From assembly GCA_003724185.1 (NCBI GenBank), contig RHGM01000001.1, positions 310,001-374,000 on the forward strand: a stretch of 64,000 bases of DNA, in the 5' to 3' direction. Below are positions 30,847-36,466 of this stretch, in pieces (position 1 is the stretch's first letter; each line of letters starts with the position of its first letter). Both the position numbers and the translations under genes were made by a program. The notes beneath the pieces were generated by a model. That model saw only the letters and a program-made list of their open reading frames with translations. It searched no databases and was not told the DNA's origin. This DNA comes from Porphyrobacter sp. IPPAS B-1204. Lineage in GTDB: Bacteria > Pseudomonadota > Alphaproteobacteria > Sphingomonadales > Sphingomonadaceae.

Positions 30847-31108
30847 CTTCAAGACCGTCAGGCGGATAGGGAATGTAAATGGGAGCCGGCTCTTGTTCCT
30901 TTTCCTGCACCTTCACGGCAATCACTACGACGCAGACAGCAAAGCTCGCAAGCGGCACGCCGAAACCCCACAGCACGGCGCGGCCGCTTGTCATGCCGAT
31001 GAGCTTGAGAAACAGGGCGATGATCGCGCCGTTAATGAACACCAATCCCAGGCCCGCGAGGATGAACAACAAGATGTAAGCTTCACCAAAACCGCCCAAA
31101 CCGAACAT
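30833..31108 (-). CDS. Small hypothetical membrane protein downstream of recN
   Basis: 91 residues with two membrane helices (about 9-34 and 43-65, AVLWGFGVPLASFAVCVVVIAV) and an acidic, proline-rich tail (EKEQEPAPIYIPYPPDGLED). The ATG at 31108 shares a base with the recN stop (TGATG). The GTG one codon upstream is less likely. No family is recognised. The coupling implies expression with recN. Confidence 0.6.
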   Translation of the reverse strand: MFGLGGFGEAYILLFILAGLGLVFINGAIIALFLKLIGMTSGRAVLWGFGVPLASFAVCVVVIAVKVQEKEQEPAPIYIPYPPDGLEDAGE

Positions 31109-32775
31109 CACACCCCCTCCAGCAACCGGTCCGCTTGCGCCCGCGCTTCGGGCGTCACCTCGGCGCCGGAGAGCATCCGCGCGATTTCCTCCTGCCGCCC
31201 GCTGTGATCGAGCAGCACCACGCTGGTCTTCGTGACCGTGCCGCTGGAGGCCTTGGCGATCAGGTAATGCTGCCCGCCCCGCGCCGCGACCTGCGGAGAG
31301 TGCGTCACCGCCAGCAATTGCCCTTCACGCGACGCCAGCCGCGCCAGCCGATCGCCGATGGCCGAGGCGACCGCCCCGCCCACGCCGCGGTCAATCTCGT
31401 CAAAGATGATCGTCGCCGCCCCGCCCTGCTCCGCCAGCGCGACCTTCAGCGCGAGGATGAAGCGCGAGAGTTCCCCGCCGCTCGCGATCTTGTTCAAGGG
31501 CGCAAAATCCGCGCCGGGGTTGGTGGAGATCAGGAACTCCACCGCGTCCATCCCGCTCGCGCCCCACTTGTCTTCAGGCAGCGCCACAACACTGGTGCGG
31601 AACCGCGCCGCATCCAGCTTCAAAGGCGCCAGCTCCGCCGCGACCGCCGCATCCAGCCGCCCTGCCCCCGCCACCCGCGCCGCATGGGCCGCCTCCGCCG
31701 CCGCAAGGTAAGCCTTGCGCGCTTCCTTGGCGGCGGCTTCCAAAGCATCGAGCTGCGCCTCCCCGCCCTCGATCGCGTCCAAACGGGCGCGCATGGTGCG
31801 CATCAGTTCGGGCAGGTCATCGACCTCGCAGCGATGCTTGCGCGCCGCCGCCCGCAGTTCGAACAGGCGGGTTTCGGCCCGCTCCAATTCGTGCGGGTCA
31901 TGCACCAGAGCCTCGGCGGCAAGGCGCAGCTTGTCCTCCGCCTCGCTCGCCTCGATCACAGCGCGATCAAGCGCATCCAAAGCCTCGGTCAGCAGCGGGT
32001 GCTGATCGGCGATCCGGTCCAGTTTGCGCGCCGCCACCCTTAGCGCGGCCAAGGGCGAATCCGATCCGTCCCACAGATGGCGCAGCGTCTCCAGCTCACC
32101 CGAAAGCTTCTCGCCCTTCTGCATGTCGGCGCGGGTCAGGGCGAGGCGGACCTCCTCCCCCGCAACCGGCTCCAGGGTGGACAGTTCGGCCAGATGCGCG
32201 ATCAGCAAGTCCTGATCGGCCTTGGCCTGCTCCACCGCACCCCGCGCTTCGGACAACTGCGCCTCGGCCCGCGCCCAATCGGCATAGGCACGCTCCAGCC
32301 CCGCGACCTGCGTTCCGGCATAGCGGTCCAGCAGCAGCCGGTGCCCGCGTGGGTTCACCAGCCCGCGATCATCGTGCTGGCCGTGCAGTTCCACCAGCGC
32401 AGGCGCCAGTTCGCGCAGCAGGGCGACGCTGGCGGGTTGATCGTTGATGAAGGCCTTGGACCCGCCATCGGCCTTCACCTGCCGCCGGATCAGCAGCGGC
32501 TCACCCGGTTCGATGGCGATTTCCGCATCGTCCAGCGCGGCGGCGATCCCGGCAGGCAGGGCCGCGAATTCAAAGCTGGCGGTCACGCTCGCCTTGTCCT
32601 CGCCGCTGCGGACCAGCCCGCTTTCCGCCCGATCCCCCAGCACCAGCCCCAGCGCATCGAGCAGGATCGACTTGCCCGCGCCCGTCTCCCCCGTCAGCAC
32701 GCCCAGCCCGCGCGCGAAATCGAGATCGAGCGCTTCGATGAGGACAATGTTGCGGATCGACAGACGGGTCAGCAT
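31108..32775 (-). CDS. recN: DNA repair protein RecN
   Basis: 555 residues, the usual RecN size. It is an SMC-like ATPase of double-strand-break repair. Walker A is GETGAGKSILLDALGLVLGD at about residue 29. The central coiled coil covers roughly 150-380 (long Ala/Glu/Arg helices). The C-terminal half has the ABC signature ASGGELSRFILALKVAL, Walker B TIIFDEIDRGVGG and the switch LAVTHSPQVAARG. It lies between bamD and ligA, as in many alphaproteobacteria. Confidence 0.97.
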   Translation of the reverse strand: MLTRLSIRNIVLIEALDLDFARGLGVLTGETGAGKSILLDALGLVLGDRAESGLVRSGEDKASVTASFEFAALPAGIAAALDDAEIAIEPGEPLLIRRQVKADGGSKAFINDQPASVALLRELAPALVELHGQHDDRGLVNPRGHRLLLDRYAGTQVAGLERAYADWARAEAQLSEARGAVEQAKADQDLLIAHLAELSTLEPVAGEEVRLALTRADMQKGEKLSGELETLRHLWDGSDSPLAALRVAARKLDRIADQHPLLTEALDALDRAVIEASEAEDKLRLAAEALVHDPHELERAETRLFELRAAARKHRCEVDDLPELMRTMRARLDAIEGGEAQLDALEAAAKEARKAYLAAAEAAHAARVAGAGRLDAAVAAELAPLKLDAARFRTSVVALPEDKWGASGMDAVEFLISTNPGADFAPLNKIASGGELSRFILALKVALAEQGGAATIIFDEIDRGVGGAVASAIGDRLARLASREGQLLAVTHSPQVAARGGQHYLIAKASSGTVTKTSVVLLDHSGRQEEIARMLSGAEVTPEARAQADRLLEGV

Positions 32776-32851
32776 GAATGCGGAACAGATAGCGCACAGC
32801 TACCCCCGCGTCACCTGCGGAACGACTGCCAATCCCCAAGGAGTGGCGGCG

Positions 32852-35263
32852 TCATTCCCCTGCGGTAACAGGGGCGTTCTTCACGTGGGCATCAAACCAG
32901 TCGATCATTTCGGCCAGCGTGTGCAGCACCGATTCGCGGCCGCGATAGCCGTGATCCTCATGCGGCAGCATCACCAGCCGCGCCGTGCCGCCCGTGCCCT
33001 TGACCGCCGCGAACATCCGTTCCGATTGTTCGGGGAAGGTGCCCTGGTTGCTGTCATTCTGGCCGTGGATGAACAGGATCGGTTCGTTGATCTTGTCCGC
33101 CGCCATGAACGGGCTGAGCCGGTAATAGGTTTCCGGCGTGTCCCAGAACACCCGCCGTTCCGACTGGAACCCGAACGGGGTGAGCGTGCGGTTGTAAGCG
33201 CCCGACCGGGCAATCCCGGCGCGGAAGATATCGCTGTGCGCCAGCAAGTGCCCGGTCATGAAAGCACCGTAGCTGTGCCCGCCCACGCCCACGCGCACAC
33301 CGTCACCAAAGCCGCGTTCGACGGTGAAATCGACTGCCGCCTTGGCGCTGGCCACCACCTGTTCGATGAAGCTGTCATTGACCGTTTCGGGGTCAGCGCC
33401 GACCACCGGCATCGCTGCGTTATCGAGCACGGCATAGCCCTGCGTCAGGAAGAACAGCGGCGAATATCCGCCGACGCGGGTGAAACGCCAGGGGGAATCG
33501 CGGTTCTGCCCGGCGGTCGCTGCATTGCTGTATTCCAGCGGATAGGCCCAGACGACCACCGGCAGCTTGTCACCCGGCTTGTAGCTGGCCGGCAGATAGA
33601 GCGTGGCGGTGAGATCGACCCCGTCAGCGCGCTTGTAGGTCACCAGTTCGCGCTTGATGCCGGTCAGTTCGGGGTGGGGATCGGGGAAGCTGGTCAGGAA
33701 CCGCGCCTCGCCGCCGTTATGCAGGCGGAAATTGCCCGGATTGGTGGGGCTTTCGTAGGATGTGACAAAGGTGCTGCCATCTTCGGCCAGCACATCGACA
33801 ACCGCTTCGAATTGCTCACCCGAATTGCGCCACAGCTCTTCGGTTTGCAGCGTGGCGAGATCGAACCGGCGCAGGAACGGGCGATACCCTTCCGGGGTTG
33901 CGCCAAGCCCGGACAGCAGCAGCTTGCCATCCACCATCCGCGCCACGCGGGTGCCGCGGTCGGAATAGGTCTGCAGCGGGCTGCCCGGATCATTGTAGGC
34001 ATCCTGCGCGTTGCGGATCGCGAGTTGGCGCGGAGCGGCGGTGCCGGTGACATCGATCAGGGTCTGGCGGATCTCGCGCGTGTCGCGGTCATATTCGTAG
34101 GCGATCAGATCGTCCGACCCCTCGATCCCCATGGCGCCCGATGCGCGGTCTTCCATCCGGGCGAGCACCCGTGCTTCGCCCTTGAACGGTGCGGCCAGGG
34201 CAAGCAGGTTGTCGCGGTTGGTGGTCTTGACGCGCGGATCGCCGCCGTCCTGCGCCTCGGCCCACATCAGCATCGCATCCTGCGTCGGGTGCCACTGGAT
34301 GTTGCGCCGACCGGTGACGACGCCCTGCACCGGCAGATCATCGGCCAGCGGTTGCTGCGCGATGGTCTCCACCAGCTTGCCATCGGCTGTGTAGACCGCG
34401 CTGATCGTGGGGAAGCGCGACCACGGAACCTGATAGGAAAAGGGCGGCTCCAGCCATTCCATCAGCATGTATTTGCCATCGGGCGACGGCGTGACAGAGG
34501 TGTAGATGCGCGGCGTGCCGATGGCGCGCTTGCTGCGCCCGTCAGCCGACATGATCACCGGCTGCGATGTCGTCATCCAGGTGAACAGCGCCTCGTCATG
34601 CGGGTTTTCGAGCAGATCCTGATAGGTGGGGTTCTGCGCCTGCTTGCCGCCGGTGGCGAACTGGATCGCGGGGCCGCGCGGGGTGAGCGGTTCGATCGGC
34701 ATGGGGCCGCGATTTTCAGGAATCGTCAGCACCAGCAGCGATCCGTCGGCCAGCCATTCGGGCGGCTGGAAGATCGGGTTGACGCCGCCGGTCATTACCT
34801 TTCGCGCAGCGGCGGTGGCGGTGTCGAGCACCCAGAGGTCAACACCGTCCGTGCGGGTGTTGGCAAATGCCACCTTCGCTCCGTCGGTCGTCCAGGTAAA
34901 GCGCGACAGATCGGCGTCGGCTGGCAGCGCCACGGCGCGGGTCTGGCCGCTGGCGATATCCTGCAAGGTCAGTCCGGTGGCCGAACGGGTGCGGTGCCGG
35001 TCATTGGTGGCGGAATCGAGCCGCAGTCCGGCCAGCTTCTCCATCGGCTTGGCGAGATCGGCGACGGGCGGCAGCGCCTCGCGCTGGATCAGCAGCAGCT
35101 GGTCCCCGCCGGGCGAGACCGAAACGCCCGGGCTCGGCGCGCGGGTGACGATGTCGGCGACGGCGGCTGGCGGGGTCCGGTATCCATCCTCCTGCGCGGC
35201 CGCGAGAGCCGGAATGCTGACAGCAAGCCCGAAGGCGGCGGCAAGACGGATCGATCTGTAAAT
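32852..35263 (-). CDS. Secreted S9 (prolyl-oligopeptidase family) peptidase, probable ATT start
   Basis: 803 residues if started at ATT 35263. The first ATG (35044) would remove the signal peptide and about 50 residues of mature N-terminus. Upstream of it the frame stays open and encodes IYRSIRLAAAFGLAVSIPAL (signal), then AAAQEDGYRTPPAAVADIV and a conserved-looking VSVSPGGDQLLLIQREALPP. No ATG, GTG or TTG lies in frame before the stop at about 35305. AGGGGAG sits 7 bases before the ATT. The propeller region precedes the catalytic domain: nucleophile GGHSYGAFMTG, acid HGQNDSNQG, histidine LPHEDHGYRG. It likely cleaves peptides in the periplasm. Confidence 0.82.
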   Translation of the reverse strand: MYRSIRLAAAFGLAVSIPALAAAQEDGYRTPPAAVADIVTRAPSPGVSVSPGGDQLLLIQREALPPVADLAKPMEKLAGLRLDSATNDRHRTRSATGLTLQDIASGQTRAVALPADADLSRFTWTTDGAKVAFANTRTDGVDLWVLDTATAAARKVMTGGVNPIFQPPEWLADGSLLVLTIPENRGPMPIEPLTPRGPAIQFATGGKQAQNPTYQDLLENPHDEALFTWMTTSQPVIMSADGRSKRAIGTPRIYTSVTPSPDGKYMLMEWLEPPFSYQVPWSRFPTISAVYTADGKLVETIAQQPLADDLPVQGVVTGRRNIQWHPTQDAMLMWAEAQDGGDPRVKTTNRDNLLALAAPFKGEARVLARMEDRASGAMGIEGSDDLIAYEYDRDTREIRQTLIDVTGTAAPRQLAIRNAQDAYNDPGSPLQTYSDRGTRVARMVDGKLLLSGLGATPEGYRPFLRRFDLATLQTEELWRNSGEQFEAVVDVLAEDGSTFVTSYESPTNPGNFRLHNGGEARFLTSFPDPHPELTGIKRELVTYKRADGVDLTATLYLPASYKPGDKLPVVVWAYPLEYSNAATAGQNRDSPWRFTRVGGYSPLFFLTQGYAVLDNAAMPVVGADPETVNDSFIEQVVASAKAAVDFTVERGFGDGVRVGVGGHSYGAFMTGHLLAHSDIFRAGIARSGAYNRTLTPFGFQSERRVFWDTPETYYRLSPFMAADKINEPILFIHGQNDSNQGTFPEQSERMFAAVKGTGGTARLVMLPHEDHGYRGRESVLHTLAEMIDWFDAHVKNAPVTAGE

Positions 35264-35290
35264 GGTTGTTCTCCCCTGATCCCGCGACTT

Positions 35291-35314
35291 TGACCATGCC
35301 GGTCAGGCTGGTCA
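35291..35314. promoter_or_regulatory. Palindrome TGACC-N5-GGTCA upstream of the S9 peptidase
   Basis: TGACC (35291-35295) and GGTCA (35301-35305) form a perfect dyad, and a second GGTCA lies at 35310-35314. On the minus strand this gives a TTGACC that could be a -35 element about 45 bases before the proposed ATT start. It could be an operator or chance; no regulator is identified. Confidence 0.25.
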
Positions 35315-35354
35315 AGGCCCGCGCTGAAGTGGGGGAGCGGTGGGGTGGGGGAGC

Positions 35355-35459
35355 GCCCTCAAGCAGCGCAGCGGTAGGGCAACAAGAACGCCCTCAAGTA
35401 GCGTAGCGGTAGGGCAACAAGAACGCCCTCAAGCAGCGGAACGATGGGGCAATAGGAAC
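35355..35459. repeat. Three tandem copies of a 35-base unit
   Basis: Units at 35355-35389, 35390-35424 and 35425-35459, each beginning GCCCTCAAG and ending in an AA-AGGAAC or AACAAGAAC tail. The first two differ at 2 positions and the third is more diverged. There are no spacers, so it is not CRISPR. It lies in the 302-base gap between the S9 peptidase and bamD genes, which holds no other supported gene. Confidence 0.85.
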
Positions 35460-35538
35460 ACCGACCCGGCTGCACAGCAGCCGCAAGGCCGACCGGCCGC
35501 CCGCAGCGGGCGCGGCTCCGCCGCGCGTCTAGCGAGGA

Positions 35539-35565: not shown

Positions 35566-36360
35566 CTAAGACGCAGTCACGCCCTCGGCATGCTTGCCAA
35601 CCAGCTTGAAGGCGCGCTCGTACCACTCGGAGCCGGGGTAGTTTGCCCCCAGCACCGCAGCATACTTCACCGCCTCGCCCCGCACGCCCAGCGCGAGGCT
35701 GCTTTCGGTGAGGCGATACAGCGCCTCGGCCGTGTGGCTGGTGGTGTCGAACTTCTCGACCACGTTGCGGAACCGCATGTCGGCGGCGAGCCACAGGCCC
35801 ATGCGCTGGTAGTGGCGGCCGATCTCCATCTCCTTGCCCGCAAGGTGATCGGCGACGAGGTCCAGCTTCAGCCGGGCGTCAGCGGCATATTCGGTCTGCG
35901 GGAAACGGCGGTTGACCTCGCGCAGCGCGGTCTGCGCCTGCTCGGTGATCTTCTGGTCGCGGTTCACATCGCTGATCTGCTCGTAATAGCTGAGCGCGAT
36001 CAGGTAGTAGGCGTAGGGCGCGTCCTTGTTGCCCGGGTGGATCGACAGGAACCGCTGCGCGTTGCCGATCGCCTTGTTGTAATCGCGCGCGATGTAATAG
36101 CTGAACGCGCTCATCAGCTGGGCACGGCGGGCCCAGGGCGAATAGGGGTGCTGGCGCTCCACCTCGTCGAACAGCGCTGCGGCCTGCAGGGTGTTGCCGC
36201 GGTCAAGCCGCCGCTGCGCCTCGGCATAGAGCGATTCGACATCGCGCGCGACGTAGGCGACGTCCTTGCCCTCCCCGCTGCCGGCACAGGCGGACAGGGT
36301 CGCAAGGGTGGCGGCGGCAACAGCCGCTTGCGCAAGACGAGTGGTGAGCTTTGTCGACAT
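35566..36360 (-). CDS. bamD: Outer-membrane assembly factor BamD
   Basis: 264 residues from the ATG at 36360, with AGGGGC before it. It is a lipoprotein (lipobox LSAC in ATLATLSACAGSGEGK) with TPR repeats through the whole mature part (VESLYAEAQRRLDRGNTLQAA, HPYSPWARRAQLM, GNKDAPYAYYLIALSYYEQI, RRFPQTEYAADARLKL). It works with BamA to insert beta-barrel proteins into the outer membrane. It marks the right edge of the recN-ligA housekeeping block. The gene on its other side is divergent and accessory-like. Confidence 0.93.
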   Translation of the reverse strand: MSTKLTTRLAQAAVAAATLATLSACAGSGEGKDVAYVARDVESLYAEAQRRLDRGNTLQAAALFDEVERQHPYSPWARRAQLMSAFSYYIARDYNKAIGNAQRFLSIHPGNKDAPYAYYLIALSYYEQISDVNRDQKITEQAQTALREVNRRFPQTEYAADARLKLDLVADHLAGKEMEIGRHYQRMGLWLAADMRFRNVVEKFDTTSHTAEALYRLTESSLALGVRGEAVKYAAVLGANYPGSEWYERAFKLVGKHAEGVTAS

Positions 36361-36466
36361 GGCCGCCCCTATAGCCAGCCCTGCGCTGAACGCCAAGTGA
36401 AGCCGCACCCCTCCCCGCCCCTCGCCCACATTTTCCTACTCCGGCGTTTTGTGATCCACCTGCCCC

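Follow-up and report, generated by a model that had tools for sequence, protein, structure and literature searches.

A conserved ATT codon as the very likely start of a gene for a likely secreted S9D-like protease in Porphyrobacter and Erythrobacter

To our knowledge, few bacterial genes have a conserved start codon other than ATG, GTG or TTG. One is infC, which encodes initiation factor IF3, starts at ATT, ATC or ATA and is autoregulated by IF3. The protease gene described here resembles infC in its non-canonical AUN start behind a Shine–Dalgarno (SD) sequence, but its product is not IF3, so the feedback loop is absent. IF3 discriminates against non-canonical starts, and in Streptomyces repression by IF3 of sigR, which starts at GTC, has been demonstrated by experiment (PMC5472188). 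The sigR start is likewise conserved, outside infC and missed by gene callers, but the codon is GTC rather than ATT and the gene encodes a sigma factor rather than a protease (PMC5472188). In Staphylococcus aureus, cvfC1 starts at AUU and ccpN at AUA, and the output of the three non-canonical starts that were tested was roughly 10% of that from AUG in poor medium (PMC13009471). The cvfC1 and ccpN starts are also conserved and follow an SD sequence. They differ in having an extended SD and in belonging to Firmicutes, whereas the SD of the protease gene is ordinary; they were mapped by ribosome profiling and reporters, whereas the protease ATT is known from sequence comparison. Borrelia burgdorferi bbe22 (pncA) is, like the protease gene, an enzyme gene with an AUU start that is truncated in public databases, but its start is reported to have been demonstrated by experiment (PMC13398362), and the protease ATT was deduced by comparison. 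A search of the titles and abstract openings listed from the open-licence literature found no earlier reports of non-canonical starts in Erythrobacter or related bacteria. On comparative grounds, the protease gene is a new addition to this small class.

We analyzed a window of 64,000 nucleotides from Porphyrobacter sp. IPPAS B-1204 (contig RHGM01000001.1, positions 310,001–374,000). Positions are those of the window, and its relevant features are listed in Table 1. The minus-strand frame 32852–35302 contains 816 open codons; in its translation (P0001), the ATT is residue 10 and the ATG at 35044 is residue 83. An earlier note on this DNA proposed the ATT as the start, and its description of the frame holds. 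No ATG, GTG or TTG lies in frame on the minus strand between the TGA at 35305–35303, 13 codons upstream of the ATT, and the ATG at 35044. The AGGGGAG motif does sit 7 nt before the ATT (spacer AACAACC). The signal peptide that the note placed after the ATT can be recognized by eye as a candidate, with two arginines, a hydrophobic run and then AxA ahead of QEDGY. Starting at 35044 would remove 73 residues, in agreement with the claimed loss of the signal peptide and about 50 mature residues; among them are residues 34–82, which can be aligned to the chloroplast glutamyl endopeptidase of Arabidopsis.

Table 1. Features of the protease locus (window positions; SD, Shine–Dalgarno).
Feature	Position	Strand	Basis
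recN, downstream neighbour, whole open frame	31108..32799	-	Pfam SMC_N match
Coding sequence, ATT to stop, 803 residues, S9D glutamyl-endopeptidase-like serine protease	32852..35263	-	Frame translation, homology
Active-site motif GGHSYGAFMT, Ser673 of P0001	33254..33283	-	Exact match, residues 670-679
ATG, first in-frame canonical start, rejected as start	35042..35044	-	Sequence read, alignment to plant enzyme
Signal-peptide-like N-terminus, 23 codons, AxA before QEDGY	35195..35263	-	By eye
ATT, putative start codon	35261..35263	-	ATT at same aligned codon, six genome records
AGGGGAG, SD sequence	35271..35277	-	7 nt before ATT; predicted duplex energy -8.3 kcal/mol
Predicted promoter TTGACC-N17-CAAAGT	35287..35315	-	TTGA position conserved among orthologues
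Palindrome TTGACCA-N12-TGGTCAA, operator-like	35290..35315	.	Spans predicted promoter
TGA, in-frame, upstream end of frame	35303..35305	-	Sequence read
bamD (YfiO), upstream neighbour, whole open frame	35566..36435	-	Open frame and homology

The late canonical start is unusual within the window. The window was compared with 20-kb segments from three relatives, and 39 frames, several of them shadow frames, were retained; in no other does the first canonical start come as late as in the protease frame (codon 87), and the runner-up (codon 74) is a frame with just 44 aligned codons. Starts were inspected by eye in nine of the 39. In seven, a canonical ATG is sensibly placed; six of these are conserved in relatives, and the seventh is at codon 161 of the M28 peptidase frame. 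The remaining two lack a Pfam match and are antisense shadow frames. The 29 other frames were assessed from tabulated first canonical starts alone.

By homology, the product is an S9D glutamyl-endopeptidase-like serine protease. It matches Pfam families PF00326 and PF02129, and NCBIfam gave only matches below the cut-offs. Among solved structures, it matches the Arabidopsis enzyme (CGEP, PDB 10eq) over residues 34–802 with an E-value of 3e-185. The S9D motif and plant catalytic residues used here come from PMC12871690. GGHSYGAFMT is present exactly; serine, aspartate and histidine follow in the S9D order, with S673, D746 and H780 aligned to the plant triad region, and a candidate for the hinge-loop W-x-Y-P, WAYP (residue 581), aligns with WSYP in the plant. 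Motif and triad positions are thus common to both proteins, and the bacterial enzyme may cleave after glutamate. CGEP differs in being a plastid enzyme with a C-terminal prosequence missing from bacterial homologues (PMC12871690), while the signal-peptide-like N-terminus is a feature of the bacterial protease, which is likely secreted. The dN/dS between this genome and the five others with ATT is 0.09–0.13, so the protein is under purifying selection.

Orthologues were collected from one scan of named genomes (69 distinct loci) and from searches of 61, 114 and 397 genomes, which are overlapping sets. Requiring at least 68% identity and a readable 5′ end, and dropping twelve duplicate loci with the same sequence in both collections, left 30 distinct orthologues. 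The gene is uncommon, found in 16 of 114 genomes of the genus (E-value 1e-100). An ATT preceded by an SD occupies the same aligned codon in six of the 30: this genome, Erythrobacter ramosus JCM 10282 (L031), the metagenome-assembled genome PH2015_14S (L032), G089 (L101), E. donghaensis DSM 16220 (L033) and Porphyrobacter sp. AAP60 (L045). In the remaining 24, an ATG falls at aligned codons 6–14, at most four codons off, and in 11 it is exactly at codon 10. The leader of one ATG genome, L036 (AAGGGAGAACCACCATG), is identical to that of this genome (AGGGGAGAACAACCATT) at 14 of 17 bases.

The earlier note took a sequencing error to be the main alternative and looked to the N-termini of relatives to decide. 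An error at a true ATG agrees with the ATG at or near this place in 24 of 30 orthologues. But the identical ATT stands in six different genome records, and a base difference common to several species is biological. Sequencing or assembly error was therefore ruled out, and we regard it as extremely improbable.

Another possibility is that translation begins at an internal canonical codon, either the ATG at 35044 or an ATG or GTG that relatives have in the signal-peptide stretch, and yields a cytoplasmic protein. Codons of this kind are present, and several public records (P0014, P0017) take one of them as the start. PH2015 has ATG at aligned codons 26 and 29, its first canonical codons falling inside the signal-peptide stretch; E. 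donghaensis has ATG at codon 29, also within that stretch; and G089 has GTG at codon 31 in the stretch and at codon 44. However, their positions vary between genomes, and in this genome they have no SD. A canonical start is absent before aligned codon 45 both here and in E. ramosus. The alignment to the plant enzyme begins just past the signal-peptide-like stretch, 49 residues before Met83, and Met83 itself aligns with a glutamate. An internal start is accordingly very unlikely.

Very unlikely, too, is a start further upstream or in another frame followed by a frameshift. An overlapping open frame begins at ATG 35297, and in AAP60 both ATG and GTG occur in frame before the ATT, the closest of them being a GTG at a distance of 14 codons (another GTG lies at codon 43). 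Yet ATG 35297 is replaced by TTG in the four other genomes with the bamD–recN arrangement, and its frame runs into a TGA in E. donghaensis; on these grounds we reject the frameshift. The AAP60 upstream GTG has no SD and lies inside the predicted promoter, and in this genome the way upstream is blocked by the in-frame TGA.

What remains at the orthologous N-terminus is no usable canonical start, and a non-canonical codon behind an SD that is conserved between species in six genome records. The note's preference for ATT as the best reading is thus borne out, and a conserved ATT start is very likely and well backed by comparison. Invariance of the codon is by itself modest support and not proof, since 17 of the 85 mature codons that end in T keep this third base across all six genomes. 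ATT occurs in 17 codon columns of any of the six genomes, and only the start column has it in all six. For isoleucine, the gene prefers ATC to ATT (25 to 4 in this genome). On the opposing side, codon periodicity in the signal-peptide stretch was not seen in the five ATT genomes compared over just 23 codons: variable sites number 9, 3 and 7 by codon position, against 7, 5 and 4 in 20 codons upstream.

The ATT requires two changes on a protein tree of 26 orthologues and three on a DNA tree of 15, two of them forced by well-supported branches; the DNA tree omits L035, whose frame contains a stop. A single clade of the six ATT genomes is rejected on the DNA tree (p-AU 0.0006), which implies more than one gain or loss of ATT. 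An early gain that later reverted to ATG in the lineage of L034/L104 (and L035) fits, and so do repeated gains. The leaders of that lineage (and L035) are unlike the leader of this genome. The L035 orthologue (L003/L035, G014), which bears an ATG, has one in-frame TAG, owing either to decay of this copy or to a fault in its assembly.

In five of the six ATT genomes, the protease gene is flanked by bamD and by a gene which, from its Pfam SMC_N match, we take to be recN. A search of the 2.5-kb flanks in AAP60 found neither of the two, so the ATT is independent of the bamD–recN location. The L035 copy also lies between bamD and recN, the L034/L104 copy is beside recN alone, and the remaining orthologues listed have neither in the fetched flanks. 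From these arrangements, the gene seems to have moved between genomic places.

A promoter is predicted upstream, from which a transcript would begin just ahead of the SD. A strict sigma-70 consensus scan did not find this promoter, so its support is conservation of position: TTGA lies 50–54 nt upstream of the start in 14 of the 16 orthologues listed. The palindrome across it looks like a candidate dedicated operator. With at most one mismatch, it is the single such site per genome in five ATT genomes; it was not found in a search of the AAP60 genome, and a reversed-pattern control gave zero sites across the six genomes searched. Chance would give 0.07 sites in the window at up to two mismatches. 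An RNA structure at the start was considered and rejected, as the fold of 105 nt is ordinary (z = -0.06); the palindrome is therefore interpreted as a DNA element. Within the bamD–protease interval, at positions 35351–35462, a repeat with 35-bp spacing occurs three times in tandem.

We think it probable that the gene encodes a likely secreted S9D-like protease, very likely started at ATT 35263 through its SD, with an output that would be low and limited by IF3. The SD would direct the ribosome to AUU, where pairing of the initiator tRNA would include one mismatch. Most initiation complexes formed on AUU would then be discarded by IF3, so that little enzyme would be made and then exported. Predicted SD duplex energies are -8.3 to -8.4 kcal/mol in the six ATT genomes compared with -6.4 to -11.6 kcal/mol in 21 ATG orthologues. 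Lying within the range of the ATG orthologues, they reject an extra-strong SD that compensates for ATT, and with an SD no stronger than theirs, low output is expected.

Control of the protease by IF3 is plausible by analogy because infC itself has an SD-backed ATA (36) or ATC (4) in 40 of the 41 loci read by tblastn in the order Sphingomonadales. In the loci read, infC thus most likely starts at one of these codons. The sole miss is L167, where no SD-backed candidate start was found. These loci (L128 of this genome, L126–L137 and L147–L175) comprise 12 from genomes of the genus, all ATA, and 29 further ones from a search that yielded loci for 30 of 58 matching genomes.

The ATT may be a real start that is merely tolerated, slightly harmful and fixed by drift with no regulatory role. 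Low yield may be harmless for such an enzyme, and the AUU start of S. aureus cvfC1 had no media effect (PMC13009471). Weighing against drift, ATT has been kept over 0.36–0.62 synonymous changes per site though it is one base from ATG, and rejection of a single ATT clade means that it was gained or lost more than once. We give drift a little short of an even chance. More tentatively, and in our view rather doubtful, the ATT could be a selected translational throttle that ties protease output to the balance of IF3 to ribosomes. That balance would itself be set by infC from its ATA start, the single-site palindrome would be dedicated to transcription control, and gain or loss of ATT would switch the throttle on or off between lineages. 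The natural ATG and ATT versions in close relatives make the purpose of non-canonical starts directly testable.

Gene callers mask such starts: four public records from three species begin at four different places. In E. ramosus, one record, P0002 (804 aa), has its first residue at the position of the ATT (M-HRSIR), and another, P0014 (758 aa), starts past the signal peptide; E. donghaensis P0017 (785 aa) begins within the signal peptide and AAP60 P0024 (816 aa) at the upstream GTG. The signature used, in which the orthologous N-terminus lacks a canonical start and an invariant AUN follows an SD, can be applied genome-wide. Eleven close metagenome protein clusters (P0003–P0009, P0011, P0023, P0027 and P0028) are 748–784 aa long. 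In the five sequences read (P0003, P0006, P0009, P0011 and P0027), the first Met lies inside or after the signal-peptide region. These short proteins suggest further lineages without a canonical start, although cut contigs may also account for them.
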